From the IMG/VR virus record IMGVR_UViG_3300024518_000952, positions 1 to 26,449 of that record: a stretch of 26,449 nt of DNA; one strand, written 5' to 3'. The notes beneath the pieces are model-generated. The model searched no databases. It was not told where the DNA came from and saw only the letters and a program-made list of their open reading frames with translations. The translations under genes and the position numbers were made by a program. This DNA is from a virus. Shown here in pieces: positions 2 through 26,449 of this stretch. Positions within the stretch are counted from its first letter, which is position 1. Every line of letters begins with the position of its first letter.

Positions 2-55
2 ATATCTAAGATTGATTTATTAAGGGCAACTGTTTCAGGAGTAACCAGTTTATGA
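2..55 (+). CDS. C-terminal end of an upstream phage gene (partial)
   Basis: One frame is open from the window edge and encodes about 17 residues ending in VSGVTSL, then stops at TGA 53-55. That stop overlaps the ATG of the next gene in an ATGA arrangement, the same coupling seen at many junctions in this genome. This is why I read it as the end of a real upstream gene rather than a leader. Too little is visible to say what the protein is. The stretch also carries the CAGGAG ribosome-binding site of the following gene at about 36-41. Confidence 0.45.
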   Translation: MSKIDLLRATVSGVTSL

Positions 56-2074: not shown

Positions 2075-2596
2075 ATGTTATTTTTTGATACTGAGACCAC
2101 AGGACTAATTCGCAACGCGGCACTGAGCCTAGATAAACAGCCGTACATAATCGAGATTGGTATAATACGCGACCCTGAGATAAAGGGTAGAGATAAGCAC
2201 TTCCACACTACCCTAAAGCCGCCAGTTATGTTGCCGCCAATTATCACCAAGATCACCGGGCTGACTGACGACGATTTGGATGACAGTCCTGTCTTTGGTA
2301 ATATCTATGATGAGCTTTGCGAGTTTGTCGAGGGAGAGACGCATTGGTGCGCCCACAACGTGCCTTTCGATAAGGGCATGCTGGAGTTTGAAATCAGGCG
2401 ACTGGGCGAGGAACTTTGGGAAGGTTTGAAATGGTCTGATACGGTGCAGCTTGCTAAGCCGCATTACAATGGACGGTATATGAAGCTGATTAAATTGTAC
2501 GAGGATTTGGTTGGGCCGTATGAGCAGAAGCACAGGGCAATCGACGATGCTGAGATGCTGATGAAAGTCTACCACGCTCTAATGGCGAAGGGTTAA
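2075..2596 (+). CDS. DnaQ-like DEDDh 3'-5' exonuclease (proofreading subunit)
   Basis: All three Exo motifs of the DEDDh family are visible. Exo I is FFDTETTG (D5, E7), Exo II is CAHNVPFDKGML (D99), and Exo III is HRAIDDAEM (H153, D158). KITGLTDDDL is the usual DnaQ stretch ahead of Exo II. At 173 aa it is essentially a bare nuclease domain, close to the catalytic core of E. coli epsilon. It starts at ATG 2075 behind a strong GGAGG at about 2061-2065. Its TAA overlaps the polymerase ATG (TAATG). This coupling to a DnaE-type alpha subunit makes a phage alpha-epsilon proofreading pair the natural reading. Direct binding between the two cannot be seen in sequence. Confidence 0.9.
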   Translation: MLFFDTETTGLIRNAALSLDKQPYIIEIGIIRDPEIKGRDKHFHTTLKPPVMLPPIITKITGLTDDDLDDSPVFGNIYDELCEFVEGETHWCAHNVPFDKGMLEFEIRRLGEELWEGLKWSDTVQLAKPHYNGRYMKLIKLYEDLVGPYEQKHRAIDDAEMLMKVYHALMAKG

Positions 2597-5415
2597 TGGA
2601 AATAGCTGCACGAACTGAGTTCACCTTCCGGGAAGTATACGGCCCCATTAAGCAGGTTGTGGCTGCTGGAGCGCGAGGGATTGCTGACGGGAATAGCTGG
2701 GGCCATATCTTCTTTTGGAAGGAGTGCCGGAAGCAAGGCTTTAATCCGCTGCTCGGGGTTCGGTTCAATGTGTTCGCTGAGTTCGAGGCTACCCGGGAGC
2801 GAGGCGACGAGTGGATCGCTTACGCTAAAGGATCGGCGGGATTGCCGGCTTTGTATCGGCTTGTTGAGAGGTCCGAGGCACAGTTCTACTACCGTCCGAG
2901 GCTCCTGTATAGCGACCTAGCCGAAAACGCTGAGGCACTGTGCCTAATAGGTGCTCCATGGTCCTATAAGCCGGGGTTCTCCTACTACACACACCGACAT
3001 CCGGGAAACGACGGTATACAATGCCTAAGCCCCGTAGCAGTCTCATCGGATAACTTCTATCCTACCCCCGGGGATGAGGAGGTCTATCGATTGATGGCCT
3101 TTAGGGGTGGTGTCCTACGAGGTGAGCCTATGCACCTCCTCGGGACCGAGGAACTGCTAAACCGATACGGATTCGAGGCTGTGGATAATTCAGTTCAGAT
3201 TTGGGAGGATTATCAGGTTGACGAGCTACCTGTAGCGACCAATGTTAAGTTCGGTAGTAAGCACCCAATGGAAGACATCGTCACCCAATGTATGAATGAA
3301 ATGCAGCGTCGGGGGTTCGATGAGGATGAGGAATATAATGATAGATTGGAACACGAACTGGAGTTGATAGATGAAAAAGGTTTCGCAGATTACTTTTTGG
3401 TCATCGCTGATATGTGTCGCTTTGCCAAGTCTAAAATGCTTGTCGGCCCCGCGAGAGGTAGTTCTGCTGGTAGTCTCGTTTGCTATCTTCTCAGTATCAC
3501 GGAGGTTGACCCGATACCACATGGACTTATCTTTGAACGATTCATCGATGTTAACAGGTTTGACTTCCCGGACATTGACATTGATTTCCCTGACGACTAC
3601 CGTGATCTGGTATTCAATTATCTTAGTGATAAGTATGGCGATAATCGGGTTGCTAGACTTGGGACAATTATGCGCTACAAACCGAAGTCTGCTCTAACGG
3701 ACTTCTCTAAGGTACTCGACATACCCGACTGGGAGATTAAAGCAGTAAAGGACGCCATCATTGAACGATCCGGGGGTGACGCGAGACTGGGCTTCTGCTT
3801 AGAGGATACGCTGAACCTGCTCGATGTGGGAAAGGAACTCAAGCTGAAGTATCCGCAAATTGCTTTAGCGGGTCGGATAGAGATGCACGCCCGACAGACC
3901 GGACAGCACGCAGCCGGGTTAATAATTTGTAATGAACCAATCACTGACTTCTGCGGTAAGTCTAGGAACGGAGTGGCGCAGGTAGAAAAGAAAGGCAGCG
4001 AGCTACTCAACATGCTTAAGATCGACGCACTAGGTCTGCGTACTCTTACGGTGTTACAGGACGCTTGCGAGGTTGCGGGCATTCCGTATGAAGGATTCTA
4101 TGAACTACCACTAGATGATCAGGAGGCTTTTGATGTTCTCAATGACGAAAAATATGCCGGCATCTTCCAGTTTGAAGGTCCGAGCCTACAAGGTGTCGTC
4201 AGACAGACTGGAGTTAAGAATTTCAATGACATTTCAGCTGCAACAGCTTTGGCTAGACCGGGACCACTTAACAGCGGTGGAACTGCAGAATATATTGAAC
4301 GAAGAACTGGGGAAAAAAGCATTACCTATCTTCATCCGCTTCTGGAAAGCATTACACAAGAGACTTTCGGAGTCATTGTCTACCAAGAGCAAGTGATGAT
4401 CTGTACCCGGCAACTAGGCAACTTCAGTTGGGCCGATACCGCAAACATCCGCAAGCTAATGTCGAACCGGGAGGGCGATGAATCATTTATGGGCTTTGAG
4501 GAATTGTTCATAACTGGCGCTATCAGTAACGGCATGCCCAAGAAAGAGGCGCAAAAGATTTGGGATAGTTTCGTGACCTTTGGCTCGTGGGCGTTTAATA
4601 AGTCTCATGCGGTCAGCTACGGAATGGTAAGCTATTGGTGCTGCTGGATGAAGGCGCATTATCCCGGGGAGTTCGCGGTGGGTTGCCTCCGGCATACTCG
4701 CGACCCGGAACAAGCACTGCGTCTGCTCCGGGAACTAAGCAAGGAGGGATTGAATTATGTCCCGGTAGACCCCGAGAATTCAGATCTTAATTGGACGCTT
4801 CATGACGGTAAGCTACTGGGTGGGCTACTCAATGTCAAAGGAATCGGAGAGAAGCATGCCATGACCATAATCAACTGCCGGGATAACGATATCAAGATGC
4901 CAGCCGGGATACAAAAGAAAATGGACAACCCCAGCACTCCCTACGATGAGCTTTGGCCCGTTACCGATAAGTTCAGGCCAGTATACGAGAACCCCAAGGC
5001 CCACAAGATTGGCGATGTTCCGTTATGCTTTACGCACGATGTGCAGGAGGATGGGACGGAGCACGAGCACGTGGTCATTGGGCGACTGGTCCGCAAGAGC
5101 ATCCGCGATCTAAATGAGGAGTCGTCAGTGCTGAAGCGCGGCGGCAAGATATTGAAAGAGAATACGATGAAGATGACGTTCTTAATGGAGGATGATACTG
5201 GGATGCTACTCTGTAGTATCGGACGTTACAAGTATAAGCAGATGGGCAAGCCCATGATCGAGTCAGTATCCCCGGGAGAATTTCTGGTTGTTAAGGGCAA
5301 GATACTCCCGGGGTACAGCCGCATATTTTTCGTGAGCACTTGGTACAGGGTATATAAGCCAGAGGACTTTCTGCTATTGAAGAAGGATCAACACTTGGGA
5401 GTAGTTAATGGCTGA
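2596..5415 (+). CDS. dnaE: DNA polymerase III alpha subunit, DnaE type (replicative polymerase)
   Basis: A C-family replicative polymerase of 939 aa, against about 1160 in E. coli. The polymerase core is intact: GPARGSSAGSLVCYLL, then PDIDIDF with catalytic D326 and D328, and KIDALGLRTLTVLQDA with the third Asp at 477. The conserved FNKSHAVSYGMVSYW and MKAHYPGEF follow, then a helix-hairpin-helix (NVKGIGEKHA). A C-terminal OB-fold-like stretch lies around MKMTFLMEDDTGMLLCSIG. The N-terminal PHP domain is present but degraded: the HxH motif reads AARTEF, and the usual T-D-H-G-N reads ADGNSWG, so metal ligands are lost. The missing length is mainly C-terminal, where cellular alpha binds tau and other partners. 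It overlaps the exonuclease gene (TAATG) and the following nuclease gene by 8 bases. Confidence 0.95.
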   Translation: MEIAARTEFTFREVYGPIKQVVAAGARGIADGNSWGHIFFWKECRKQGFNPLLGVRFNVFAEFEATRERGDEWIAYAKGSAGLPALYRLVERSEAQFYYRPRLLYSDLAENAEALCLIGAPWSYKPGFSYYTHRHPGNDGIQCLSPVAVSSDNFYPTPGDEEVYRLMAFRGGVLRGEPMHLLGTEELLNRYGFEAVDNSVQIWEDYQVDELPVATNVKFGSKHPMEDIVTQCMNEMQRRGFDEDEEYNDRLEHELELIDEKGFADYFLVIADMCRFAKSKMLVGPARGSSAGSLVCYLLSITEVDPIPHGLIFERFIDVNRFDFPDIDIDFPDDYRDLVFNYLSDKYGDNRVARLGTIMRYKPKSALTDFSKVLDIPDWEIKAVKDAIIERSGGDARLGFCLEDTLNLLDVGKELKLKYPQIALAGRIEMHARQTGQHAAGLIICNEPITDFCGKSRNGVAQVEKKGSELLNMLKIDALGLRTLTVLQDACEVAGIPYEGFYELPLDDQEAFDVLNDEKYAGIFQFEGPSLQGVVRQTGVKNFNDISAATALARPGPLNSGGTAEYIERRTGEKSITYLHPLLESITQETFGVIVYQEQVMICTRQLGNFSWADTANIRKLMSNREGDESFMGFEELFITGAISNGMPKKEAQKIWDSFVTFGSWAFNKSHAVSYGMVSYWCCWMKAHYPGEFAVGCLRHTRDPEQALRLLRELSKEGLNYVPVDPENSDLNWTLHDGKLLGGLLNVKGIGEKHAMTIINCRDNDIKMPAGIQKKMDNPSTPYDELWPVTDKFRPVYENPKAHKIGDVPLCFTHDVQEDGTEHEHVVIGRLVRKSIRDLNEESSVLKRGGKILKENTMKMTFLMEDDTGMLLCSIGRYKYKQMGKPMIESVSPGEFLVVKGKILPGYSRIFFVSTWYRVYKPEDFLLLKKDQHLGVVNG

Positions 5416-10683: not shown

Positions 10684-11330
10684 CGGTTTTGATTCCTTTG
10701 GCCACGACCACCTGGTGGACGATCACTGCCACCACCAATATTCTGATAACTCTTGAATCCTGTTCGCACCATCTCACCAGCCCAACTAACTTCAGCATCC
10801 ATCAGTGCCGGGAGAAACTCAAAGAACAAATCCCCGGGATGATCCACTTGGTGATCCTCCAGCGTGTAGCGTTTGTTATTCCGCAGTCGCAGCCGACTAG
10901 CCCGGGACTGTAGCCTAATAGCCAATCCATCCTCAGACCCAATGATCAATTGTACTGTTTCCATATGCCCGGAGTACCAGTTATCAGGCGTACCGATCAA
11001 TTGATAACCATCATCCAACACTCCGAGATACAAGTCAGCATCCCTACCAAACACATCGTCAGTCTTAACCGCATCAATTATCTCCGGGACAATTGAGCTC
11101 AAGGTCAATGTCACTGGCTTACTAACTAGGTCAAGAGTATCCTCCAGTACATCTATGCCGCCAAACCCTCCCACTCCGAGATAATCAAAGCCGCCAAAGG
11201 AATGAGTGCCTACTCCGTTGTGTAGGTAGACTGTGCCTGATGGGAATGCTAACTTAACAAGCACAACATACTTAAACTCAGCACTCTCAGCGCCAGCCTT
11301 CAGGTCAGCATCTATAGTACGATCAGTCAT
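10680..11330 (-). CDS. L-like distal tail / baseplate hub-associated protein
   Basis: A 216-aa mainly beta protein between the M-like and K-like genes, which is the lambda L slot. The N-terminus (EFKYVVLVKLAFPSGTVYLH, then GTHSFGGFDYLGVG) followed by VTLTLSSIVPEIIDAV is typical of phage distal tail proteins of the DUF2163/BR0599 kind. In these, a strand-rich domain describes a ring at the tail tip. The C-terminus turns Gly/Arg/Asn-rich (GGGSDRPPGGRGQRNQNR), probably flexible. No Cys cluster for an iron-sulfur site, known in lambda L, is visible. Junctions on both sides are ATGA overlaps. Assignment rests on gene order plus general strand pattern. Confidence 0.55.
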   Translation of the reverse strand: MTDRTIDADLKAGAESAEFKYVVLVKLAFPSGTVYLHNGVGTHSFGGFDYLGVGGFGGIDVLEDTLDLVSKPVTLTLSSIVPEIIDAVKTDDVFGRDADLYLGVLDDGYQLIGTPDNWYSGHMETVQLIIGSEDGLAIRLQSRASRLRLRNNKRYTLEDHQVDHPGDLFFEFLPALMDAEVSWAGEMVRTGFKSYQNIGGGSDRPPGGRGQRNQNR

Positions 11331-13051
11331 TCCGTCATGTCCTCCAGTACCTCGAAACTAATATCAGTAGCACGCAGCGGCTTATCCGTGTACTGGATTG
11401 TCCCAGATAGCAACCTGCCTTTCATTTCAGGATTGTGAAAGATTACCGGGTTGTGCATTGTTTCGCCAACAAATGAAGCCAGTACAGGAAACCTATCAGG
11501 CACAGGCGCATTACGGATAGGTGGATCGAAATCAATAATGGCGCTACCTTCCCTGTGCGTTTTAACTTCTTCGGTAATACGTTTGAACTCTGTTCGCTCG
11601 AAGTAACTGCTGTTAACATTATTAAATCTATTGACTACCTCGAATCTCTGACCAGCCTTTAATATATCGCCAGCCTCGAACCCATCAAGTATCAATCGGC
11701 TACCAGTTTGCGATCCCGTACCAACGATAGCTGCTGCACCAGTCTCGATATATGGCCCCATGTATGGGAATTTGCGTAACGATGCTCCAAAAATTTCTAT
11801 ACCACTAGAGCCATCCGCAGTATATTGCTGCGTGCCATCACTAGTTACTACAAATATCAACGCAGAAAGATTATTCAGACTAGATACCATTCCAGATAAT
11901 TGGCAACGATAGGTATTGGAGCCTACAGGCCACGCCTTAGCGTGGGGCCGTGAACCTACTCCAGCATTGTTAAGATTCTGAATAGTGCCGCTAGCAGCAT
12001 CAAACGTAGCAGTCACGCCGTTATTAACTGAGTCATACATTCTGAATAATACGCCCATATCAAAATCAGTAACCCTAGCATAACAAGCCATGGTATATAT
12101 ATCTTCAGTCATAGGCTTAGTGATGGCTTGTGTTATTCTGTGCTCTGTATTGACGCTAGTGTTACCATAAATTTTCCAGCCGCCACTGTTGACTCCTACC
12201 GGGGAAGCATCCCACCAACCAGATTCCACGTTAAGATTTATTGCGGTCCAATCTGCATGAGCGAAATCATTAGACCGAGTTAGCAACTGTTCCGAGTTAG
12301 CAATCAGAGCGCATCGCTGTAGACGGTAGTCAGCATAGTAAAAATGCTCACCAATTTTTGGAGGGCCAGCATTGGAATCCTGAACGTAGACTATATAGGA
12401 ATTGTTTGTCGTATAGAATGGTGCCGTAATTGAATCATCACTTGCCACTAGGGTTGGTGCATGCTGTACGCCAAATAAATCTACAGCATCAGAACCAACC
12501 TGAAAATTGAATGACCTTGGGCCCACTCCATTGAATGACTTTATGCGCTGAACGTAGGTCGCACCTGCTTGAAATGAATTTACTTGGACGCCGCCGCCAT
12601 GGCCTTTCCATCCAATGTTAGATGTACCAGTCACCCTTCGCCATTCAAACCTTACTGATTCATCCTCATTAATATTGGCATCAAGTCTAGGACTTTTAGC
12701 AAACCAAGAATTGACGCTGGAATCATCAGCCCCAGCGTCAGCTATAAATGCTCCATACCCGGAGAATACGTCTATCCAGTCTGATACGGAACCCTTTGGC
12801 TCATAGTCTCCGGGGTCAGTGACTTTAAAAGTATTGACCGAGCCGCGACACTTCATCAGGAATGCATGAACGATGTCACGTTCACTATCACTCAAGTCCG
12901 TGTATTCATAAGTCCACTTCCAGACCGGGTTGCCCCGGGAGGCTACCTGCTGGACGTTGGTCAGTGGTGAACGGATAGTCTCATCCACCCGGGCCAGAGC
13001 AACCGTGAGTCGGGCTGGAGGGATTTGCGTCGGGAATTTAATCAGGCTCAT
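11327..13051 (-). CDS. Distal tail (M/Dit-like) protein with inserted carbohydrate-binding-like domain
   Basis: A 574-aa protein directly downstream of the tape measure. Residues 1 to about 90 (from IKFPTQIPPARLTVALARVD to GSVNTFKVTDPGDYEP) and the last about 120 residues (from LKAGQRFEVVNRFNNVNSSY to TDISFEVLEDMTE) look like two halves of one small distal tail protein. Between them lies a long insertion. About 255-440, it begins LLTRSNDFAHADWTAI and contains GGWKIYGNTSVNTEHRITQA, a pattern common to phage jelly-roll sugar-binding modules. Residues about 130-250 may hold another beta domain. Lambda M is only about 110 aa, so four-fifths of this protein is extra. Likely role: tail-tip ring with host-surface binding arms. 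Overlaps on both sides are ATGA. Confidence 0.65.
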   Translation of the reverse strand: MSLIKFPTQIPPARLTVALARVDETIRSPLTNVQQVASRGNPVWKWTYEYTDLSDSERDIVHAFLMKCRGSVNTFKVTDPGDYEPKGSVSDWIDVFSGYGAFIADAGADDSSVNSWFAKSPRLDANINEDESVRFEWRRVTGTSNIGWKGHGGGVQVNSFQAGATYVQRIKSFNGVGPRSFNFQVGSDAVDLFGVQHAPTLVASDDSITAPFYTTNNSYIVYVQDSNAGPPKIGEHFYYADYRLQRCALIANSEQLLTRSNDFAHADWTAINLNVESGWWDASPVGVNSGGWKIYGNTSVNTEHRITQAITKPMTEDIYTMACYARVTDFDMGVLFRMYDSVNNGVTATFDAASGTIQNLNNAGVGSRPHAKAWPVGSNTYRCQLSGMVSSLNNLSALIFVVTSDGTQQYTADGSSGIEIFGASLRKFPYMGPYIETGAAAIVGTGSQTGSRLILDGFEAGDILKAGQRFEVVNRFNNVNSSYFERTEFKRITEEVKTHREGSAIIDFDPPIRNAPVPDRFPVLASFVGETMHNPVIFHNPEMKGRLLSGTIQYTDKPLRATDISFEVLEDMTE

Positions 13052-15747: not shown

Positions 15748-16734
15748 TTAGAAGTTGTTTTGAGTATTGGTTAATGTGAACGCAATGCTAGTCGCAGAAC
15801 CAACGTGGTAGTCACCTTTGCCTTCGAATGTTACCTGTAACTCGGATGGATCGGCAAACTCAACCGGGTAAGACAGATACTTGAATGCTGGAACAATGAC
15901 ATTGAATACGTCAAAGAATCCAGATCGAACTTCTTGAGTCCCGGTCATAGTTAACTGGAAAGCCTGTGTTGTACTGGCTAGGAACAAATCGTATTCAGTT
16001 TGATCCACAAACTTGATCGTTCCATTAACTCGAACCTGTCGCCGGGCATCACGCTTAACTCGGTCAGGGTCTTTGGATGTTTTCAAGACCCAACGAGCAG
16101 TGGCTTGTTCATCAACGACAATAGTTATGTCGCCAAAGTCAGTATTAGCTACGCCACCCAATTGAAGCGAAGTCACATCCCATGTCCATTTCTTACCAGT
16201 AGCAGCAGCCATAGTATCACTGGTCTGCTTAGTCGCTACAACACCCCCGGTAAATTGCGCCGTAGCCATAAGGAATTCACCATTGGCTATTTTAATCTCT
16301 AACCGGGTTGCAACCAAATTGTTGTATGTCGGAACTTGCCCGCCATCCGCCAGATTCTTATGCATCGTCATCGGGTTGCCAGTAACATTGACATCGAAGT
16401 CAGCAGTGCGAGGCTTGAACGTATGAGTCCAGAACTCACCAAGCGCAGTTGAATTCGATACTGTTACAGGATCGCCCATTAGAGCCTTCATCAAAACACC
16501 GACAGTAACGGGCTGTGCCTCGTTAGCGAGAGTGCCACCAACATTCCTCGCGCCAGAATAAGATTCGCCTTCATCAAAACGACCTTCCATGTTTTGGCTA
16601 AGCAACTCAGGCACTTCAGGGGTAACGGATTCACTTACAAATGGCATCAAGTAAAATGAACCAATATCTGTTACCACCACATCGTGACTATTCTGGAACG
16701 CAAGACCAACTTTTGCGTCTTGACCATACGGCAT
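15748..16734 (-). CDS. Major tail tube protein
   Basis: A 328-aa beta-rich protein in the major tail protein slot, between tail terminator and chaperone genes. DIGSFYLMPFVSESVTPEVP and MEGRFDEGESYSGARNVGGT, then ANEAQPVTVGVLMKALMG and HTFKPRTADF, match the phage tail tube family. That pattern is a sub-unit opening with 'S-x-T/P-E', a 'G-x-x-S' segment and G-G-x-L. It stacks into the hollow tube through which DNA passes. It is longer than the simplest tube proteins, so the C-terminal 100 residues (around YLSYPVEFADPSELQVTFEG) may form an extra outer domain. An AGGAG (16747-16743) lies 8 bases from the ATG, consistent with the high expression needed. Confidence 0.85.
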   Translation of the reverse strand: MPYGQDAKVGLAFQNSHDVVVTDIGSFYLMPFVSESVTPEVPELLSQNMEGRFDEGESYSGARNVGGTLANEAQPVTVGVLMKALMGDPVTVSNSTALGEFWTHTFKPRTADFDVNVTGNPMTMHKNLADGGQVPTYNNLVATRLEIKIANGEFLMATAQFTGGVVATKQTSDTMAAATGKKWTWDVTSLQLGGVANTDFGDITIVVDEQATARWVLKTSKDPDRVKRDARRQVRVNGTIKFVDQTEYDLFLASTTQAFQLTMTGTQEVRSGFFDVFNVIVPAFKYLSYPVEFADPSELQVTFEGKGDYHVGSATSIAFTLTNTQNNF

Positions 16735-16747: not shown

Positions 16748-17189
16748 ATTTAACTTCAAAAGAAACTTCTGCTTCAAACGTAATGATCGCACCCTGAAAA
16801 TACATTGTCTTTCGATCATCCTCCAGATATGTATACTCAACCGATATGCTTGCAAAATGATCCAGATAGGTACGCGGTATCTGGACCACTCGATCTATAA
16901 TTCTTTTCGTGAATGCTTCCAAAGCATCCTCACAGTCTGCCCCGGAGGCAAGCCTAGACATCTGCGCTATGATGCCAAAGGACAAATCAGCATCATAGTT
17001 ATTCGGCGGCACTCCTAGATTACGAGGATCATAGTCAACGCCGCGCCGGTATATGCCAATCCAACCGTTGCGGGCGCGACCAGCATCCTCGTTCACGAAC
17101 TCACTACGCTCAACCGTAGCCCCATCCAGTTCAAAATCCGTCTCAAGCCATTCTTGAACCTGGATCATTATTGTCGATACATTAATCAT
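16746..17189 (-). CDS. Tail terminator-like protein
   Basis: A 147-aa protein just ahead of the tail tube gene. Pattern features fit the tail-terminator family (lambda U-like). It has a short N-terminal helix (VSTIMIQVQEWLETDF), a strand pair (GWIGIYRRGVDYDPRNLG), a helix with GADCEDALEAFTKRIIDRVV, and a C-terminal strand series (ISVEYTYLEDDRKTMYFQGA to AEVSFEVK). The terminator caps the growing tail at its correct length and joins it to the head. The start is an ATGA overlap with the previous gene. Assignment is by order and strand pattern rather than a decisive motif. Confidence 0.65.
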   Translation of the reverse strand: MINVSTIMIQVQEWLETDFELDGATVERSEFVNEDAGRARNGWIGIYRRGVDYDPRNLGVPPNNYDADLSFGIIAQMSRLASGADCEDALEAFTKRIIDRVVQIPRTYLDHFASISVEYTYLEDDRKTMYFQGAIITFEAEVSFEVK

Positions 17190-17647
17190 CGCAATGCCTT
17201 ACTGACGTGGGCCACATATATTTTCCTTATGCCGGCAATTACACCCGGGTCACTAGCGATAGGCAGCATCCGTCTAGCCGGAAGATTACGATGTGGGTAA
17301 CCTAACTCATGAGTTATGGAGTAACGCAAACCTGAACCTATGCCGGCTTCAGTTTTACTGAAAAATGGATTAAACGATATTCGCAATCGTCCAGTATCTT
17401 GTAGGAGTTTTGCTGATGCGTCAATCGCGCCACCAGGCATCCGTCTACCTCCGTGCTTAAACGGTTTCCAGCCGCCCACCTTGCCACCTTGTGATTTGAA
17501 ATTCTGATTCACCCATCGCACCAACCAGATTGATACTTTCCTATTCGCTGATCTTGTGTTCTTGATTCGCTTGGCGATGATCCGCAAAGAACGCTTAGCA
17601 TCATCAGCGCCACCATTAATTGGTTCGACTATGATATCTCTAGCCAC
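17186..17647 (-). CDS. HK97 gp10-like / virion morphogenesis (neck) protein
   Basis: About 153 aa from the start chosen here. The basic segment RSLRIIAKRIKNTRSANRKV, then IWLVRWVNQNFKSQGG and GWKPFKHGGRRMPGG, then LLQDTGRLRISFNPF and IGSGLRYSITHELGYPHRNL, fit phage virion-morphogenesis/gp10 proteins. In that family a helix is followed by 'F...G-W-x-P-L', 'L-x-D-T-G-x-L' and 'Y-x-x-x-H-x-x-G'. I chose GTG 17647: it has AGGAGG (17659-17654) six bases upstream and only an 8-base overlap with the previous gene. ATGs at 17683 and 17665 would lie up to 44 bases inside that gene with no comparable SD. Likely role: head-tail neck or tail completion. Confidence 0.75.
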   Translation of the reverse strand: MARDIIVEPINGGADDAKRSLRIIAKRIKNTRSANRKVSIWLVRWVNQNFKSQGGKVGGWKPFKHGGRRMPGGAIDASAKLLQDTGRLRISFNPFFSKTEAGIGSGLRYSITHELGYPHRNLPARRMLPIASDPGVIAGIRKIYVAHVSKALR

Positions 17648-18089
17648 TGCGATCCTCCTCGGCATCCAATAGGTCTTGATCAATATGCCAGAGGTCCGGG
17701 GTCCGCATACCGAAGGATGAATGGTAACTTTCCGTGGTACTGTGTAGACCGATCTTTTGCTTAGTCTGTTCTATTCGGGTTCCAGTGTCGTCGATCATCA
17801 CCACCTGGCCATCTTTAATCATGCCAATCGTTTCAAAGAATGAACTCTTAACTCCAGTAGCATCCTCCAACTTAAACCGAGCAGCCCTCCAGTAACAATA
17901 GTCAATAGACAAGTCCCGAATAATCATATTGTTGCTGCTAAAGGGTATGGTGTAATGATTCGCTAACAGTCCATCCACAAACGCTTCAGAATAAACTATG
18001 TATGAGGAGGATAGTTCATCAGCGCCACCAAGCGTATCCAGTGTAGGGTAACGATCAATTACATCCTCCCAATTAATATATCTGCCCAT
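17640..18089 (-). CDS. gp36/DUF1320-like head-tail connector
   Basis: A 149-aa protein whose N-terminus (YINWEDVIDRYPTLDTLGGA) and helical centre (AFVDGLLANHYTIPFSSNNM, then IIRDLSIDYCYWRAARFKL) follow the DUF1320/gp36 head-tail adaptor layout. That layout is an initial 'D-x-x-x-R' segment, a helix with 'V-D-x-x-L', 'Y-x-x-P', then a helical block with an 'A-x-Y' core. The C-terminus is less helical (SFGMRTPDLWHIDQDLLD). In related phages this protein forms a ring below the portal. The ATG at 18089 touches the stop of the 93-aa gene (TGATG). It lies directly on the tail side of the repeat-protein genes. Family assignment is moderately firm. Confidence 0.65.
   Translation of the reverse strand: MGRYINWEDVIDRYPTLDTLGGADELSSSYIVYSEAFVDGLLANHYTIPFSSNNMIIRDLSIDYCYWRAARFKLEDATGVKSSFFETIGMIKDGQVVMIDDTGTRIEQTKQKIGLHSTTESYHSSFGMRTPDLWHIDQDLLDAEEDRSG
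17654..17659 (-). promoter_or_regulatory. Ribosome-binding site deciding a GTG start
   Basis: AGGAGG on the - strand, followed by ATCGCA and then GTG (17647-17645). It lies inside the end of the DUF1320-like gene and selects the GTG over the upstream ATGs of the gp10-like gene. Confidence 0.7.
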
Positions 18090-18370
18090 CAGTCAACCTC
18101 CCCACGTACAGCCTTAAACCGTCTGCGACGTTTATATGCTAATCCACCAATAGTTGCATCCCATTGGCTGACGTAATAGCCGGGGGTGTTAACACCGCCA
18201 GATACGTTGCGATAGAAATGACCATTCAAACTATTCACGCCAGCGCCCGAGGACACAATTGATTCGCTCCCATCAACGATGGACGCTACAATTACTGATG
18301 GATCGGTGCCGCTGGCAACGAATATCTGTTTGAACGTATCACCAACCAAAACATTCTTCATGTTAGCCAT
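18089..18370 (-). CDS. Small beta-rich phage protein, unknown (head-tail region)
   Basis: A 93-aa protein without a family I can name. It is beta-rich (VLVGDTFKQIFVAS, IVASIVDGSESIVSSGAG) and ends in a basic stretch (YKRRRRFKAVRGEVD). It has no TM or signal peptide. It sits between the giant repeat genes and the DUF1320-like connector, where small joining, stopper or capsid-decoration proteins are usual. Its ATG at 18370 overlaps the previous stop as TAATGGC, the same junction seen at 20943 and 24713. A joining or decoration role is inferred from position only. Confidence 0.6.
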   Translation of the reverse strand: MANMKNVLVGDTFKQIFVASGTDPSVIVASIVDGSESIVSSGAGVNSLNGHFYRNVSGGVNTPGYYVSQWDATIGGLAYKRRRRFKAVRGEVD

Positions 18371-20943
18371 TATGTCTCTCTCGTAATCTTAGTCAAAATA
18401 TTGAGTCTATCAACGCTGTGATCAACATTTAGTTTCTCAATGTCATGCTGAAAATTTCGTTTAACAAGTTGCTGAATCTTCAATGCCGTAACAAAATCAA
18501 ATACGTCGAACTGATCCATCAGCAATATATCGTTGAGCGCACCTCCCTCTCGAATGTACGTAGCAATAACGCTATCGGTTATGGCTGGGTTGTCGGTGAG
18601 TATTCTAGCCCTTTTCAACAGTCCTATAAAGCCACCCTCAACATCAAGCGTATCCACCAACAGCCGAGGCTTATCTACGAGCGAGGCTATGCTATCGGTT
18701 GCTAGCAGGGAGTTCTGTGATAGCCTGTTTCGCTCCCGGAGTGTGTTTGATACGTCCTGTACAGTCGCCTCATCCGCGTTGAGCCTGTCCCGGAACCGTA
18801 GCGGCGTGCTGCTATCTATGGTATCAATCGTACTTAGCAACGTCCTGAAGGTTGCTGATATCCTGATTGAGATAGCATTATCAATTACTACGATTGAATC
18901 AAACAGTTCCCGGTTACGATGGCGCAGTTCAGTATGGCTATCGACTATATCAACTGAGTCTAGTAGGGTCCACATCCGATTGCGGAGTTCGATATGATTA
19001 TCAATTAGCTCAATCGCATCCAACAGCGTCCTGAAGATTGCTGATATCCTAACTGCGATAGTGGTATCAGTAACCGCGACATCTTCAATCAGTTCCCGGA
19101 ATCTCTGCCGGAGTCCGATAGTATCATCACCAACAGCAATAGCACTTAGCAGTTCCCGGAATCTCTGCCGGAGCTCAAAGTGGTCCTCACTGACAGCAAT
19201 AGAGTCAGCGACCAATCTTGGTTTTATTTTCGACCCGGTGATTGAGTCAGTCATAACTATCAGACTGTCAATCAGTTGTCGCGTCCTGTCCCGCAGTTCT
19301 ATATTAAAGTCAGCTACAACTGCGCTATCACTCTGTATCCGGTTTCGCTTACGGAGTTCGATAGCATTATCAACAGCGACCAAAGAATCAGCAATCTCTC
19401 GACCAGCGACCTTAAAGCTAACGTCATTATCAGTAGCAGTGATAGAGTCAGCAGCCTCGCGCAATCTTAACCGGAGACTAAGAAGCGCATCATCTACCGC
19501 AAAGTCAGACAAGGTTTCCCGGTCACGTAACCGCAGGAAGTCTGCCGGGTCGCTTACGACTGCGTTGTCACTAAGAGTGACGGTGTTGATTGTCGGGCCA
19601 CCAGCTAAACTCGACAGTCGAATAACAGCAAATTGTGCTGATGAGTTAGTGATCGCCCCGACATTGCCTATAAGATCATTACGGCAATGGATTGAATCGT
19701 TAGCGGATAAGCCATTTAGCAATGTCGCACAAGATAAACTTGAGTGGTCTGCTGTTCCGTTGGCGCGGTGATAAGACGTACAGCCTACGTGCTCAACATC
19801 AGTCGTATTGATTCGGAACTGAAGGGCGGGCATGGCTCGTGTTGTCGTGGTACCAGCATCCGTAGAATCACCCATAGATGCCATGGCAATATAATCACCA
19901 GCATTATCTACGTCAATATTAGTTTGCCCGGAACTAAAGGTAAATGCCGCTGAATCTTCATAAGCGGAAGCATTGGGCCAGTTAAAGTTTGTCGCTGCCG
20001 TATTATAATTGCCAGCAGCACTTTCAACAATAATTGCTTCAGCACCAGCCGGGAGTTCAACTAATTGCAATGCTGCTTCAAAGTCCTCACCACCACCTTC
20101 CCGGGAAACAACACCAACATTGACGTCCCACCCGGAAGTCGGATTCAATAGAACTACACTGGATGACCCACCAAAGCCGGCATCTTGTGAACTTCTGCAA
20201 TACTGATGATTCCACGATCCAGCAAGAACAGAACCATTCAGAAATAGGTTAGATTGAAACTCAGATCGCCCTGCTGCGCCCGCATCTTCAGACTTGATGC
20301 TATAGACCGCCAGAACTAGATTGCCAGTAGCAATGTCAACATTATTGGTTGAACGGGTGAATGGTGAATCTTGCTCATCCTGAGTCTGAATGTTCATTAC
20401 CGTGCGAACATTATCCGTTGCGCTGGTAGCCGTTACTGCTGATGATTGGTAACGACCATATCCCAATGTATCATCCAATTTGATAATTGTGATACCAACA
20501 CGATCATCAACCACCCTAACCGGGCCAGTTAAAATTACGTCGTCATTTCGAGCGCAACGAACTTCTAACTCATCACCATTCCCGGTGGTTGTAGTAACAT
20601 TGATAATTGCTGCGCTAAACGTAATGTAATCAAGCAAATCAACATCATTCTTTCGTATATAAGCGTGGCTATATCCTTCGACCAGTTCCACACCAGCCAA
20701 AGTCAACGTCTGCTTATAGGCAATGCGCTCGTTATTAGTATTGTCTACTGAGTTGGCGTGATCCGAACACATTACTAAAAAGTGCCCAGTTTCTCCTAGC
20801 GTGATAACGCCAGCACTATGGGTAATCCCAGAACCAACATTAGCAATCGCTGTTGGCCATTCTAATAATAGATCGCTGCCCGTTGCCGGAATTACATCCG
20901 TGTTCGAGGCATTGCCGCGTATAATGTAATCACCAGTGGCCAT
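18370..20943 (-). CDS. Large modular repeat protein 3 (C1q-like N-terminus plus 17 x 20-aa repeats)
   Basis: An 857-aa protein. Residues 1 to about 455 look like two or three jelly-roll units of C1q/TNF-like shape (ITHSAGVITLGETGHFLVMC and later NIDVDNAGDYIAMASMGDST). Residues 470-814 are 17 units of about 20 residues with consensus LRxRxRxLLDSIxVTDxxIE. Two examples are LRQRFRELLSAIAVGDDTIG and LRHRNRELFDSIVVIDNAIS. Arg or Lys positions alternate with paired Asp positions one repeat apart, which could stack as salt bridges if each unit is one coil of a solenoid. The last 40 residues are helical and basic-acidic (KIQQLVKRNFQHDIEKLNVD). No signal peptide or TM is present. It overlaps the neighbours as TAATG. 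It lies on the head side of the connectors, so a head fibre or decoration is the leading guess; function unproven. Confidence 0.8.
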   Translation of the reverse strand: MATGDYIIRGNASNTDVIPATGSDLLLEWPTAIANVGSGITHSAGVITLGETGHFLVMCSDHANSVDNTNNERIAYKQTLTLAGVELVEGYSHAYIRKNDVDLLDYITFSAAIINVTTTTGNGDELEVRCARNDDVILTGPVRVVDDRVGITIIKLDDTLGYGRYQSSAVTATSATDNVRTVMNIQTQDEQDSPFTRSTNNVDIATGNLVLAVYSIKSEDAGAAGRSEFQSNLFLNGSVLAGSWNHQYCRSSQDAGFGGSSSVVLLNPTSGWDVNVGVVSREGGGEDFEAALQLVELPAGAEAIIVESAAGNYNTAATNFNWPNASAYEDSAAFTFSSGQTNIDVDNAGDYIAMASMGDSTDAGTTTTRAMPALQFRINTTDVEHVGCTSYHRANGTADHSSLSCATLLNGLSANDSIHCRNDLIGNVGAITNSSAQFAVIRLSSLAGGPTINTVTLSDNAVVSDPADFLRLRDRETLSDFAVDDALLSLRLRLREAADSITATDNDVSFKVAGREIADSLVAVDNAIELRKRNRIQSDSAVVADFNIELRDRTRQLIDSLIVMTDSITGSKIKPRLVADSIAVSEDHFELRQRFRELLSAIAVGDDTIGLRQRFRELIEDVAVTDTTIAVRISAIFRTLLDAIELIDNHIELRNRMWTLLDSVDIVDSHTELRHRNRELFDSIVVIDNAISIRISATFRTLLSTIDTIDSSTPLRFRDRLNADEATVQDVSNTLRERNRLSQNSLLATDSIASLVDKPRLLVDTLDVEGGFIGLLKRARILTDNPAITDSVIATYIREGGALNDILLMDQFDVFDFVTALKIQQLVKRNFQHDIEKLNVDHSVDRLNILTKITRET
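18502..19536 (-). repeat. Coding repeat tract, 17 units of ~60 nt (20 aa)
   Basis: The tract codes for residues 470-814 of the 857-aa protein. Most units are degenerate at DNA level, but some keep recent identity. For example, a 24-base block is identical at 19090-19113 and 19150-19173, exactly 60 bases apart. The unit length is an exact multiple of three, so gain or loss of units stays in frame. Confidence 0.85.
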
Positions 20944-23900
20944 TATATATCGACCTTGTGATCAATATCCAATACTGAGATACCATGAGTCACTGCGAAG
21001 TCAGCCATATGGAATATGTAATTGGCCTCTATGTTATCTGTTACTTCAATTGTATCAGTCTTGGTGATTGAGATTACAAGGATACCTTCTGCGAAGTAGG
21101 TTGGGAAAGAGAAGTCAACAATGTCAACGTCATCAAACAGCACCCGGGCGCGTATCGTCAGCCCTTCCAACGCGTCAGTTACTTCCAGTGAGTCTGATAG
21201 TGACCTTGGCCTATGTGCTGCTGATAGGTCAGTATCCGTAACGGGGATTGCGTCGGACTGGCCTCGGAACCGTTGTCGCAGTTCGATATGGTTATCAGCT
21301 ATCTCCAGAATGTCTGAAGTAACTCGTGGCCGTAGTCTTAGCTCAATGCTGTTATCCGTAACGACCAATGAGTCAAATAGTATCGTCCCAATTCCCGGGA
21401 TAGCCGCAAGATCAGTAAGCGTAATGCTATCGAACATCGTGCGGTCAGCTAGCTTAAACCAGTCCTCACTATCCGTAGTAACCAGCGAGTCAGCAGCAAG
21501 CCTGTTGCGATCCCGGAGCATAAACCGGAAGTCATTAACCTCCAACGAGTCAGTCAAGACAGTAAGGATTGCTGTGGTGATTCTTTCAGCGATAACATTA
21601 TCAACGGCCACTAGCGAGTCAGCGAGTACCCGGAACCGCTGACGCAGTTCTATACTATCATCACCCATATCCAGTGAGTCAAATAGTATAGTGCCTATCT
21701 CCGGGATCAACGCCAAGTCAGTCAGAGCGATTGAATCAGATAGTGTCCGATCAGCTAGCTTGAACCAATCCTCAGCATCATTGACCTCTATGGAATCTGC
21801 ACGTAACCGATCAGCTAGCTTGAACCAGTCTTCATTATCAGTAACAGTAATAGCATCCGGCAGCATCCGGTTGCGCTCTCGGAGGGTGATAATAGAATCC
21901 ACTACCTCAATCGTGCTGAGTAGAGTCCTGAAGGCGGCGGAAATTCTTTGCGCGATAGCATTATCAGTAACAGCGAAGGAATCAAGCAGCACTCGAATCT
22001 CGATCCCTGTTTGCCCTGCTAGGGCAGTATCATTTACAGCGAAGGAATCAAGCAGCACTCGGAACCGATGGCGCAGTTCTATAGCAGCATCTATCATCTC
22101 CAGAGTGTCAGCTGCGCTTCTGCCTTTTACTGTGATGGCTGTGATGGCATCTGTAATGCTATTTGTGACGACGTTATTCAGTATTGTAACGGTGCGCTTG
22201 CGGATCGTGTCGTGCGAGTAGTCGGTGGCTAATGCGTCAGTCTGTACTCGTTCTCTCTCGCGCAGTTCATCATGCGGGTCAGCGACCACGATGCTATCCC
22301 CGAGAGTACGGAACTGAATGCCAGACTTTCCGAATATAACATTATCAGTAACTTCAGCAGTATCCAATAACTGGCGTATGCGCTGCCGGAGTTCAATGTG
22401 ATTGTCAGTTACCGGGGCATCATCGCTAGTGGTGACATAACTGAATCCATGCCTATCTGCTATTGCGGCGTCAGTTATTTCTATCGCATCCAGTAGCTCG
22501 CTTATGCGCTGCCGGAGTTCAAAGTGAGTATCAGTTACCGGGACATCGTCGCTAAGTGTAACAAACTTATTACCAGCGACCAAAGTTATAATGTTATCAG
22601 CAACGGGTATTGAATCAAGCAATACTCTTATACGCTGCCGGAGTTCAATATGGTCATCGACCGTTTCAAGTGAATCAATTAGTACCGTACCAATCTCAGG
22701 GATCGCTGCAAGATCAGTTAATGCTATGGAGTCAGATAGACTTCGGTCAGCCAGTTTGAAGAAGTCATCAGCATCCGTTACTTCTGCGGAGTCAGTCTGT
22801 AACCTATTACGTTCACGCAGTTGTTCGTCAGCATCGACTGCTTCTAAAGAGTCAGCTTGCTCCCTATCTCGCAGTCGGAGTTCAATGCTGTCATCCGTTA
22901 CTTCTGCGGAGTCAGACAGTATTCGATTTTGCGTCCCAGTCCTGATTGCTTCAGATGCATCAACTGCTTCTAGGGAATCAGTCTGTAGCCTATTGCGCAG
23001 CCTTAGTGATTCCAGAGCATCGACAACTGCAAAATCATTAGACTGTAATCGTTCACGCAGCCTTAGTGATTCCAGAGCGTCCGTTACTTCCAGTGAGTCT
23101 GATAATGTGCGTGGGCTAAGTGCTGATCGTTCTAACGCATCAGCCACTTCAGCAGAGTCTAGTTGCTCCCGGAAACGTAACCGCAGTTCAATGCTATCAT
23201 CCGTTACTTCAACTGTATCCGTTATCAATACAGCATTAGGCGCTATGGACTTGACCGCAATAATACTATCAATGATCTGCGTTTCAATAACATTATTCAG
23301 TATCGTTACTGTACGTTTGCGGATTGTATCGTGCGAATAATCCAGAGCCAACGCGTCAGCTTGTCCTCTGTCTCTTAATCGTAGTTGCTCGTCAGCATCC
23401 GTAGCAGTAATCGAATCAGCTTGCTCTCTGTCCCGTAAGCGCAACGGCGTAGATGGATCAGCCACCACTAAGGATTCTGTCTTGGTGACCTCATTAATCG
23501 TTGGACCAAGGTTCGTGTCCTCAAAGGCATAGTAGCCAATAACCTCATCATCAGTCGCGCCAGTGGTATTCGGGTTCCACTCGATATCAACCGTAGCATC
23601 AGTAATTGCTTGTGGCGTACCGGAGAATTGAACTCCGCTAATATCTAGGTTATCTGATCCAAATAGGACTTCTCCGGTACGCGACCACGCTGCGCGATCT
23701 GCCGTACCACCGTCATCATTGGTTGTGCCGCAAGCGTGTCCCGTATCACCGTCATACGCACCGTGGAAGATCGCACCCGGGCCTTGTACGTTGATGGTTT
23801 CAAGATCACGGACTGCGGTGGCGAGATGATAGCCCATCGGCGTGAAGCCGAAAGAAGGCAATGTTTGAGTAGTCGGCGCAGCGGTTGTAGATTTCAGGAA

Positions 23901-24713
23901 ATCACCGACAGCTACGCCAATTCCACCGAGGTCTAACCAGAGTGTTAAAACATCATCACCACCAGTACCACCCGTAAAGGTGAAGGTGGTCGAGCTCATT
24001 GCTGTACAGACGTTCGTCCAGTTGGTATACTCAAGGTTATATTGGCCAGCGCAGAAACCAGAAGCAAGACCTGAACCTGAATGAGTTTCGTTATTGTCGC
24101 CCCAATAGGACATCAATGCCCATTGGTTAATGCCGGAGGTGACTGCACCGAAAGATAAGAAGCTGTGCTGGGAACTGGCTGGATGTGCTTGGCCATTCGT
24201 CAGAATTAGGGCTAGATCAGGAACAGAACCCAAACCGTGCGAGTGCGGAGAGTCAGTTGCTGAGTTATCATTGCGCGTGGTGATGTTAGCGGAACCATCT
24301 AAGCCACCCCAAATCTCATAGTGAACAATACGATTGGCAGAGAACAACGTGTAACTGATCGTTACATCGTTGGTGTTCATCGCCGCTGTGGTGCCGACTA
24401 CGAGCTTCGTTCCAGTAGCATCATTGGGATCAACCATGTTGATGATATTGTCAGCACCACCAACCGCGCCAATACCGTTACGATGATTCTCTGAAAATGC
24501 GTGTTGAGCAGTAACGCACATGGAGATGGCATCAGTGCCGTCGCCAAATCCATGGCCCATAGTTGCTGATAATTCTTCGGTGTCGTTTACGTCAGCGTGA
24601 GTCCACCAGACATGAATAGCAAACGGATTGGTGCCCTTATCGGTCGTTGATATGACCGTCGTACCGGACGCTGGTACTAAAAATGTCCCTGTTTTATACC
24701 AAACGTCAGCCAT
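20943..24713 (-). CDS. Large modular repeat protein 2 (beta N-terminus plus about three dozen 20-aa repeats)
   Basis: The longest protein here, 1256 aa. Residues 1 to about 400 are beta-rich with Gly/Thr/Asn-rich loops (HSHGLGSVPDLALILTNG, HSFLSFGAVT and QWALMSYWGDN). They contain two internal halves resembling domains seen in phage structural proteins. From residue 424 onward there are about three dozen 20-residue units such as LRLRDREQADSITATDADEQ. Two higher-order modules are visible. One contains a block like DWFKLADRTLSDSIALTDL followed by PEIGT and occurs three times. The other contains DYSHDTIRKRTVTILNNV and occurs twice. The final 50 residues are different (EGILVISITKTDTIEVTDNI to ISVLDIDHKVDI). 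It has no signal peptide or TM. It likely forms an elongated virion fibre. Confidence 0.8.
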   Translation of the reverse strand: MADVWYKTGTFLVPASGTTVISTTDKGTNPFAIHVWWTHADVNDTEELSATMGHGFGDGTDAISMCVTAQHAFSENHRNGIGAVGGADNIINMVDPNDATGTKLVVGTTAAMNTNDVTISYTLFSANRIVHYEIWGGLDGSANITTRNDNSATDSPHSHGLGSVPDLALILTNGQAHPASSQHSFLSFGAVTSGINQWALMSYWGDNNETHSGSGLASGFCAGQYNLEYTNWTNVCTAMSSTTFTFTGGTGGDDVLTLWLDLGGIGVAVGDFLKSTTAAPTTQTLPSFGFTPMGYHLATAVRDLETINVQGPGAIFHGAYDGDTGHACGTTNDDGGTADRAAWSRTGEVLFGSDNLDISGVQFSGTPQAITDATVDIEWNPNTTGATDDEVIGYYAFEDTNLGPTINEVTKTESLVVADPSTPLRLRDREQADSITATDADEQLRLRDRGQADALALDYSHDTIRKRTVTILNNVIETQIIDSIIAVKSIAPNAVLITDTVEVTDDSIELRLRFREQLDSAEVADALERSALSPRTLSDSLEVTDALESLRLRERLQSNDFAVVDALESLRLRNRLQTDSLEAVDASEAIRTGTQNRILSDSAEVTDDSIELRLRDREQADSLEAVDADEQLRERNRLQTDSAEVTDADDFFKLADRSLSDSIALTDLAAIPEIGTVLIDSLETVDDHIELRQRIRVLLDSIPVADNIITLVAGNKFVTLSDDVPVTDTHFELRQRISELLDAIEITDAAIADRHGFSYVTTSDDAPVTDNHIELRQRIRQLLDTAEVTDNVIFGKSGIQFRTLGDSIVVADPHDELRERERVQTDALATDYSHDTIRKRTVTILNNVVTNSITDAITAITVKGRSAADTLEMIDAAIELRHRFRVLLDSFAVNDTALAGQTGIEIRVLLDSFAVTDNAIAQRISAAFRTLLSTIEVVDSIITLRERNRMLPDAITVTDNEDWFKLADRLRADSIEVNDAEDWFKLADRTLSDSIALTDLALIPEIGTILFDSLDMGDDSIELRQRFRVLADSLVAVDNVIAERITTAILTVLTDSLEVNDFRFMLRDRNRLAADSLVTTDSEDWFKLADRTMFDSITLTDLAAIPGIGTILFDSLVVTDNSIELRLRPRVTSDILEIADNHIELRQRFRGQSDAIPVTDTDLSAAHRPRSLSDSLEVTDALEGLTIRARVLFDDVDIVDFSFPTYFAEGILVISITKTDTIEVTDNIEANYIFHMADFAVTHGISVLDIDHKVDI
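21105..23444 (-). repeat. Coding repeat tract, about three dozen ~60-nt units with higher-order modules
   Basis: The tract codes for residues 424 to about 1200 of the 1256-aa protein. Identical blocks at 60-base spacing include 22996-23018 with 23056-23078 (23 bases) and 21748-21767 with 21808-21827 (20 bases). A 66-base spacing gives 21970-21995 with 22036-22061 (26 bases). Other copies agree in protein but differ at many third positions, so both old and recent duplications are present. Confidence 0.85.
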
Positions 24714-26449
24714 TACTGATTTTGGATACCATGCTCGATACAGATGTCAGCCGGGGGAAGCAAAGTGCCGCTTGAAGCGCGAAGGAAATCAACCAAGGAT
24801 ATGGTGTCCGCAGACAATGTGCTATTTAATATAGCAGTTCGAGTCACGAGAATATCATCGTTCATCGTCAGTGAATTATCATCAATTACTACCTCTGATA
24901 ATTCATCCTGATTTAGAAAAAGACTCCTGTCTCTAATTGAAAATAGATCAGTTAGATCGCTAGTGCTTAATGGACTTATTGATGGCGTGACATTCCTACG
25001 TCTAACCGGAACCAGCGCATCTGTATTGCTTAACGTATCCAGAGTCTGCTGATGCCTGACTGCGTTAGCTAATGCTGAATCAATAACACCAGCCTCGCTA
25101 AGTGCTACCCGGTATCGGATGTGATTCAAAGTCAAGGCTTCACTTAGCGAAAGTGTGTCGCTAAACTCTCGATTGTTAATGCCATGGAATGCTAATTGCG
25201 GAGTGTCTTCTATGTTTAATATCTCCTCCAGCAATACCGCGAACGTCTGTTGCGATTCACCCACAGTAACAATTTTACTAAAAAAATCACTCAATGAAAC
25301 TGAATCACCAACCACTCGCTGCCTCTCTAATAATTGGGCGAGACTATCGGACGATGACAGTGAATCGCTGCTTAGCCTAGCCAGCGCCACTGAAGTATTT
25401 ACATTATCCCCTACAGCAATGGCAGTCGAGACTTGCCGGAAAACCTGTCGCATAATACTAAGGGCATCAGATAGATTAGAAGTTTCCAATAACTGATTGT
25501 CAATAATGCCCTTCAGCACAATAGCATCATTGACCTCGAAATTCTCAAACAGCAACCGACCCAGCGCCGTATAAAGGAATACGCCATCACTCAATAACTC
25601 GACACGATCCCCGGGAATCCTCTGCCGTAGAATTGTGCCCGGAACCGGATCAGTTATAGCAGTGGTCGAAGTCAGCACCCGGTTAATCACAACCCCACTA
25701 GCATCCTCGCCAATAAACATCATTGGCCATAAGTGCGTTACGACATCCACAGCAGTTATATCCGCATTAGCAACATCAAATCCATCAGCGGTCAGAGTGG
25801 GATTCGCCCAACGGTAGTTCAATGATTCGTCATCCGTAATTAGCACAAAGTCATCAGAAACTCTGTCCGCTGACCGCTGTGTTGTCGGGCTACCACTGGA
25901 ACCAGAACCATCGTCAACCATCCAAGCTGTGGAGTGTTTATTGGGTGTGCCCGCATTGTCAAAAGCAAAACAAGAGAACAAGCCTGCCGTGTTGTTTGTT
26001 TCTCCGGCATTGATAATATCAAACTCGTTCATCATACCAATGACGCCTTGCGGCAAAAATGATGCGCCGTTCACATTCCAATCCACCGATGTTGAATCAG
26101 GCGAATTTTCAAGTACCAGATCAACGTCCTCAGTAATCAGCCCGACCAGGCCACAAAAAGAATCGCCTGTCATCGCGCTATCTTCAACTGTAAACGTAAG
26201 ATTGGTGCCATCAACGCTAGTAAGTTTAATTGATTGATCAATCGTAGCTCCACTATCCAATCCACCACCGACCTTGTCATTGTGTATCAACCCATTGGCG
26301 AATACTGGATTACCAGTTGCAAAATGCATCATACAATACTGCACAATCACATCTAACTTATTAGTAAACATTCCAAACGACCATCTGCTAGTGGACGCCA
26401 TCGTATCTATGGCGCTAATCTCATCAAAACCTATGAAGCCCAGGTTAGG
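24713..26449 (-). CDS. Large modular repeat protein 1 (5'-incomplete at window edge)
   Basis: At least 562 aa from ATG 26401, but the frame stays open to the window end. The extra 16 codons read as ordinary protein (NLGFIGFDEISAID), and the ATG at 26401 has no visible SD, so the true start probably lies outside. The N-terminal 270 residues parallel the N-terminus of the 1256-aa protein in order of motifs (LPQGVIGMMNE, GLFSCFAFDN, STAWMVDDG, THLWPMMFIGED). After this come about 13 degenerate 20-residue units (for example LLERQRVVGDSVSLSDFFSK), Ser-richer and Arg-poorer than in the other two proteins. The C-terminus ends ADICIEHGIQNQ. The stop overlaps the next start as TAATGGC. It is a paralogue of the two following genes by layout. 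Confidence 0.75.
   Translation of the reverse strand, partial: PNLGFIGFDEISAIDTMASTSRWSFGMFTNKLDVIVQYCMMHFATGNPVFANGLIHNDKVGGGLDSGATIDQSIKLTSVDGTNLTFTVEDSAMTGDSFCGLVGLITEDVDLVLENSPDSTSVDWNVNGASFLPQGVIGMMNEFDIINAGETNNTAGLFSCFAFDNAGTPNKHSTAWMVDDGSGSSGSPTTQRSADRVSDDFVLITDDESLNYRWANPTLTADGFDVANADITAVDVVTHLWPMMFIGEDASGVVINRVLTSTTAITDPVPGTILRQRIPGDRVELLSDGVFLYTALGRLLFENFEVNDAIVLKGIIDNQLLETSNLSDALSIMRQVFRQVSTAIAVGDNVNTSVALARLSSDSLSSSDSLAQLLERQRVVGDSVSLSDFFSKIVTVGESQQTFAVLLEEILNIEDTPQLAFHGINNREFSDTLSLSEALTLNHIRYRVALSEAGVIDSALANAVRHQQTLDTLSNTDALVPVRRRNVTPSISPLSTSDLTDLFSIRDRSLFLNQDELSEVVIDDNSLTMNDDILVTRTAILNSTLSADTISLVDFLRASSGTLLPPADICIEHGIQNQ
24790..25630 (-). repeat. Coding repeat tract, ~13 degenerate 20-aa units
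   Basis: The repeat is readable only in protein: a short hydrophobic, Arg-containing stretch, then S/T-x-S/A-D-S/T-x-S-x-S-D. Unit lengths vary from 18 to about 29 residues. No long DNA-level identity was noticed, so this tract looks older or under different selection than those at 18502-19536 and 21105-23444. Confidence 0.6.

Follow-up and report, generated by a model that had tools for sequence, protein, structure and literature searches.

Head-borne adhesins of phages are known from few models. The phi29 gp8.5 head fibre and SPP1 gp12 are accessory capsid adhesins, described as aiding attachment to the cell and not the stability of the capsid (PMC7602432). T4 Hoc, T5 pb10 and N4 gp17 are immunoglobulin-like (Ig-like) decorations that have been tied to carbohydrate binding and host adhesion (PMC7602432). 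C1q-like genes for putative receptor-binding proteins have also been found in the variable islands of environmental phages, with several variants in one metagenome (PMC7468147). The subject here is a group of three adjacent repeat proteins, W1, W2 and W3, encoded at 18370-26449 of the viral record IMGVR_UViG_3300024518_000952 (IMG/VR), all of whose 26,449 bases were analysed and are called the window below. Four features of these genes are shown: a 20-residue repeat, a kept gene order in relatives, an exchange of N-terminal modules between genes, and the predicted fold of one of these modules. The proteins are probably virion adhesin fibres of some kind, and attachment at the capsid or neck, with a polarity the reverse of that of tail fibres, is somewhat favoured.

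All three genes are on the minus strand, and their open reading frames (ORFs) overlap by 1-4 bases. W1 (18370..20943, 857 residues) begins with module 1 (residues 1-448), which is followed by about 17 recognisable repeat hits and a conserved C-terminal tail. W2 (20943..24713, 1256 residues) has the same order of parts, with module 2 in residues 1-405, about 38 repeat hits and a conserved C-terminal tail. W3 (24713..26449, at least 578 residues) is open at the window edge, its 5' end lying outside, and consists of a partial module 3 and then a divergent repeat array. Its homologue R3 has 728 residues, which puts about 150 N-terminal residues of W3 beyond the window and makes the ATG at 26401 an unlikely start.

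Periodicity at a lag of 20 residues dominates the C-terminal parts of W1 and W2, with mean BLOSUM62 scores of +0.50 and +0.42 (the largest shuffle maxima were -0.26 and -0.43, respectively). By autocorrelation, no 20-residue periodicity was found in the N-terminal parts of these two proteins, and the lag-20 score of W3, -0.31, is within the shuffle range. The repeats of W3 were settled by a hidden Markov model (HMM) made from 228 stretches of three units each, taken from other viral contigs with the window's own lineage excluded. This external HMM matches W2 at 1.6e-39, W1 at 7.6e-13 and W3 at 3.1e-12; it gave 0 matches in 210 shuffles and four other window proteins. An HMM of the repeat unit trained on W1, W2 and W3 themselves finds 17, 38 and 9 matches, respectively, many of them partial. 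The spacing of units is mostly 20 residues, with some of 22 and 19. The units are arginine-rich (LRxRxR), and the core of the stalk is DS(I/L)xVxD. The initial annotation had described three adjacent giant proteins, each with a beta-rich N-terminal region followed by degenerate 20-residue units. The observation of three large, beta-rich repeat proteins stands, with the ORFs, the lag-20 signal in W1 and W2 and the HMM matches in all three.

Profile scans of the window repeat proteins detected no significant Pfam or PHROG family. Sequence searches of the PDB found nothing, and with P0002, P0003 and the tail tube protein as tblastn queries 50,697 phage records gave 0 matches. Scans with protein patterns of module 1 alone or of the aligned repeats found nothing outside two contigs of a relative, L007 and L008. 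A search of the literature turned up no phage structural proteins with 20-residue repeats.

Different parts of these proteins have diverged to different extents. Between the window and its closest relative, the repeat regions are 78-86% identical, and the N-terminal modules 33-50%. For comparison, the connector and tube genes are 82-95% identical, the tape measure 71% and the distal tail protein 51%. The modules have also changed places. Module 1, which is on W1 in the window, is found on the relative's second gene, whose repeats correspond to W2; module 2, on W2 in the window, is on the relative's third gene, whose repeats correspond to W1. W1-W3 are mosaics, and module 1 has no sequence relationship with module 2 or module 3. 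The N-terminal regions are therefore not one domain and the repeats alone are paralogous, so that of the single shared plan first proposed for the three proteins the repeats stand and the common N-terminal region does not.

The last 60 residues of the protein in the final slot are 22-39% identical across diverged members of the lineage, and the N-terminal modules of these members show no significant similarity to that of W1. A constant C-terminus joined to changing N-terminal modules leads us to propose the C-terminus as the constant assembly side. The pattern is the reverse of that of a classical tail fibre, in which the N-terminus is conserved and the C-terminus varies. In a different phage (L218:1-7515), module 2 occurs in a 504-residue protein that lacks the DSxxVxD stalk; the same array holds MptE-like and sulfotransferase genes and a 635-residue protein with the repeat SGTPSIDVxTASGVAT.

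Module 1 lies at 19600..20943 on the minus strand. A model of W1 residues 1-448 made with AlphaFold2 (AF2) has a predicted local distance difference test score (pLDDT) mostly of 70-93, and shows a trimer-like arrangement of jelly rolls, as in the C1q/TNF superfamily. The best solved match by Foldseek is the engineered single-chain APRIL-BAFF-BAFF (4zch; E 4e-14, template-modelling score TMt 0.66), followed by a single-chain C1q head (5hzf; 1e-11, TMt 0.64); these two TMt values are taken over the targets, and the root-mean-square deviations are 6.4-6.8. Lower in order are exosporium and phage receptor-binding proteins, then the PRD1 spike. A phage C1q-domain protein also matches the model (TMt 0.74). 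No Pfam family matches the module 1 protein (P0001) at E 0.1. When profiles of the subdomains were compared, the first was similar to the second and third at E of about 1e-5, and the second and third were weakly similar to each other. From the model, its structural matches, its relatives and the likeness of its subdomains, module 1 is predicted to consist of three tandem jelly rolls that close into a one-chain pseudo-trimeric head, packed as in single-chain TNF/C1q trimers. The pseudo-trimer is a prediction from a monomer model and not a measured structure.

Four more viral contigs have module 1, in diverse settings. It is nearly alone in L214 and L216, is found within a 1509-residue protein in L213, and has another stalk repeat in L217. 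The latter (L217:6001-8499) is alanine/proline-rich, with the repeat VTPAxIxxxxxLPxAxPxGxAxV, and this different stalk suggests that heads are swapped between stalk types. Genes of the head or of DNA packaging lie nearby in each case. The module 1 gene lies between the capsid and major tail genes in L217, immediately after the head-tail adaptor in L216, and a few genes from the portal gene in L213. In L214 it is upstream of a putative large terminase, a reading of the sequence with no profile match behind it.

The position of the repeat genes relative to the capsid genes can be seen in the relative represented by L008 and L007. Both contigs come from one metagenome, and since their ends overlap by over 100 bases, a joint gene order can be read across them. 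The order begins with a Mu F-like head protein, a head maturation protease, a small cement-type protein (PF09956, 3.5e-8) and, directly after it, the major capsid protein (MCP; phrog_1005, 1.5e-68). Next are a 985-residue glycosyltransferase/methyltransferase, a 163-residue protein weakly similar to the tail fibre family phrog_4176 and a 501-residue protein with a weak glycoside hydrolase match; then come the three repeat proteins, the 93-residue gene and the connector genes. The three genes between the MCP and the repeat genes occupy about 5.4 kilobases, and the expectation that capsid genes would lie just beyond 26449 did not hold.

Further members of the lineage were recruited through the tail tube protein. 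In every member that covers the slot, the connector genes are immediately preceded by repeat proteins, from one to three of them. A repeat gene comes just before a gene of 91-94 residues and the connector genes in L007, L220, L221, L222 and L223, and just before the connector block in L225. The glycosyltransferase/methyltransferase and a gene of 163-170 residues (166-170 in L222 and L223) are common to L008, L222 and L223 upstream of the repeat genes. As in the head module expected to hold a head fibre or decoration adhesin, capsid genes are found upstream (in L008) and connector genes downstream (in all slot-covering relatives). The same arrangement in independent contigs from other metagenomes rules out an assembly artefact.

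Among the matches listed, the closest annotated capsid relatives include the Roseobacter RDJL phages, Ruegeria phage Tedan and Rhizobium phages. In RDJL Phi 1 a single gene, of 221 residues, separates capsid from Neck1. The corresponding slot of Tedan holds two large proteins, of 545 and 1140 residues, which are unrelated. These matched no family and lack the repeat by unit score, so they are considered a positional analogue only.

The repeat itself is common among viruses. When three consecutive units were written as a degenerate DNA pattern, this matched once in the window and in 0 of 100 shuffles; viral contigs gave at least 119 stretches with it, which rules out a repeat private to one phage. 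In the loci that were fetched, 97 ORFs have at least three consecutive units, with a pooled consensus of approximately R(S/T)xxD(S/T)(V/I/L)x(L/V)(S/T)DS, in which the pattern used for selection dictates both D and the S/T. The family phrog_12240, which has no assigned function, is matched by about half of the carriers tested (36 of 69). A scan of P0001-P0003 against PHROG at E 0.1 did not match this family. Some carriers also have Laminin_G_3 domains. In a larger collection of bacterial and archaeal genomes, the same pattern occurs in 71 stretches; several of them are thaumarchaeotal, and some come from streptococci and further Gram-positive bacteria. Similar runs of three DSxxVxD units are present in Nitrosotalea and Nitrosopumilus genomes (L144, L157, L159, L162, L165, L182, L199), so the repeat may also serve cellular or proviral proteins of archaea.

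The immediate neighbours of viral repeat genes include phrog_5417 and the tail fibre, long tail fibre and virion structural families, together with long-tail-fibre-distal and baseplate families in other viral contigs. For repeat genes of L023-L140, the family met most often just upstream is phrog_5417 (function not assigned), with 15 of the 107 ORFs in that position; its members may function together with the repeat proteins. Since the neighbours in other phages are mostly tail-fibre genes, the repeat alone points to the virion surface and not specifically to heads. These neighbourhoods favour the main alternative, that W1-W3 are side fibres or receptor-binding proteins attached to the tail, their genes lying by chance on the capsid side of the connector. 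The weak likeness of the 163-residue gene of L008 to tail fibre family phrog_4176 is in the same direction. We consider tail attachment rather unlikely, because the slot between capsid-side and connector genes is kept across the lineage, four other phages have module 1 next to genes of the head or of packaging, and the usual J-type tail protein is already present at the tail end. The large capsid-side surface structure suggested by the initial annotation is, in this sense, partly upheld: the conserved slot, the setting of module 1 and its predicted C1q/TNF-type adhesion-head fold agree with it, but the repeat is not head-specific.

It is improbable that the proteins are late accessory cargo absent from the virion, e.g., coating or modifying the surface of the lysing host or released as decoys. 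The glycosyltransferase/methyltransferase and glycoside-hydrolase-like genes upstream in relatives, with the sulfotransferase and MptE-like genes of the related array, do indicate that part of the block is enzymatic accessory content, and the lack of large proteins at the slot in RDJL Phi 1 would suit such cargo. However, repeat genes are kept in every slot-covering lineage member, with repeats and tail conserved, and similar repeats elsewhere sit among virion structural genes. Decorations that stabilize or space the capsid and are not adhesins would suit the location after the capsid genes in L008, but are very improbable given the separate cement-type protein that already precedes the MCP and the exchanged, variable lectin-like modules, which are unexpected for a purely structural cement.

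What the genes suggest of virion presence, attachment site, polarity and ligand can be put together for the favoured fibres on the capsid or neck. In each protein a beta-sandwich module at the N-terminus would bind a glycan or some other ligand on a surface, and the C-terminal part would be a stalk of DS(I/L)xVxD repeats, 20 residues each, capped by the conserved tail. Tail and repeats would remain with the gene slot as N-terminal modules swap among slots and phages. Assembly would take place at the C-terminus, with the N-terminus facing outward for binding, the opposite of a classical tail fibre. Several such fibres could then give reversible attachment to cell surfaces. The upstream glycosyltransferase/methyltransferase and glycoside-hydrolase-like genes may belong to the same surface cassette.

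Several observations weigh against fibres of this kind. Gene order is no proof of location, as a late operon may hold accessory genes at any point, and the capsid genes upstream are visible in one contig only (L008). Many other phages have the repeat in tail-fibre neighbourhoods. The C-terminal conservation in distant members is just 22-39% and could partly reflect recombination boundaries and not anchoring. With an alignment of 10 sequences, AF2 left the repeats of full-length W1 unpredicted (pLDDT <45). An alignment of 52 arrays (first row L135) gave an all-beta model with a pLDDT of 71 and a predicted template-modelling score (pTM) of 0.60, which has no significant match to solved (PDB) structures. 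The stalk is possibly a beta solenoid or an intertwined multi-chain beta fibre; the latter type is exemplified by the Orsay virus delta head fibre (PMC7565637).

The rest of the window is organized as follows. A tail operon on the minus strand runs, from high to low coordinates, in the order W3, W2, W1, the 93-residue gene, a Mu Gp36-like connector and a Neck1 protein. The 93-residue gene (18089..18370, minus strand) has no assigned function and, in most members of the lineage, comes immediately after the repeat genes. The head-tail connector (17640..18089, minus strand) is like Mu Gp36 (former DUF1320), with matches to PF07030 at E 0.0045, under the curated cutoff, and to phrog_195 at E 0.067. 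The repeat genes do precede this connector, as had been noted, but its assignment is sub-threshold and the 93-residue gene intervenes. The tail completion or Neck1 protein (17186..17683, minus strand; phrog_26 1.7e-13, PF05069 3.7e-6) is followed by a 147-residue gene in the tail-terminator position and by the tail tube protein (15748..16734, minus strand; PF18906 7.3e-17), the query for finding lineage members. Two small genes, the tape measure, a distal-tail-like protein, a J-like protein and an amidase come next. The distal-tail-like protein (11327-13051, minus strand) is the most diverged of the tail genes compared with the relative (51%, the others 71-95%); within it is a long insertion with the look of a carbohydrate-binding domain, though Pfam detects none. 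On the plus strand the phage has its own DNA polymerase gene (2596-5415; phrog_405, 1e-220). With it, at 2075-2596 and 992-1762, are an adjoining gene that reads like a proofreading exonuclease and a thymidylate synthase gene. A 312-residue protein (52-990, plus strand) has an N-terminal Rossmann-type FAD/NAD motif and matches phrog_4828 (function not assigned) at 4e-72.

The closest known kind of protein is the head-attached adhesins, such as phi29 gp8.5, SPP1 gp12 and Hoc-like proteins. From phi29 gp8.5 and SPP1 gp12 the window proteins differ in their variable N-terminal jelly-roll modules, in a stalk made of 20-residue repeats and in having as many as three paralogues. T4 Hoc, T5 pb10 and N4 gp17 resemble them as beta-sandwich surface proteins, but are Ig-like monomers without a long stalk of degenerate repeats. 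About half of the repeat carriers tested match phrog_12240, whereas the window proteins, with their arginine-rich LRxRxR unit, are unmatched by that family at E 0.1. In the environmental phages with C1q-like genes (PMC7468147), single genes occupy variable islands; here a module of three jelly rolls is exchanged between repeat-stalk slots. What is new relative to known head adhesins is the undescribed, widespread repeat, the exchange of modules among several slots and the variable end being N-terminal. A tentative generalization would be a widespread, previously undescribed class of viral adhesins, in which a constant C-terminal stalk and tail on the head or neck carries an exchangeable N-terminal lectin module, swapped like a cassette among several slots. 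A recognizable repeat, a defined slot in a siphophage-type lineage and the exchange of modules make the attachment role testable in cultured relatives. One N-terminal module of the proposed class is predicted, from its model, to be a natural single-chain C1q/TNF pseudo-trimer. It has the same predicted three-domain arrangement as C1q/TNF heads, including the engineered 4zch and 5hzf, but would be a natural single-chain fusion, in a phage protein without a Pfam match. Since such fusions have been made artificially, a natural one, if true, would be of interest to protein engineers.
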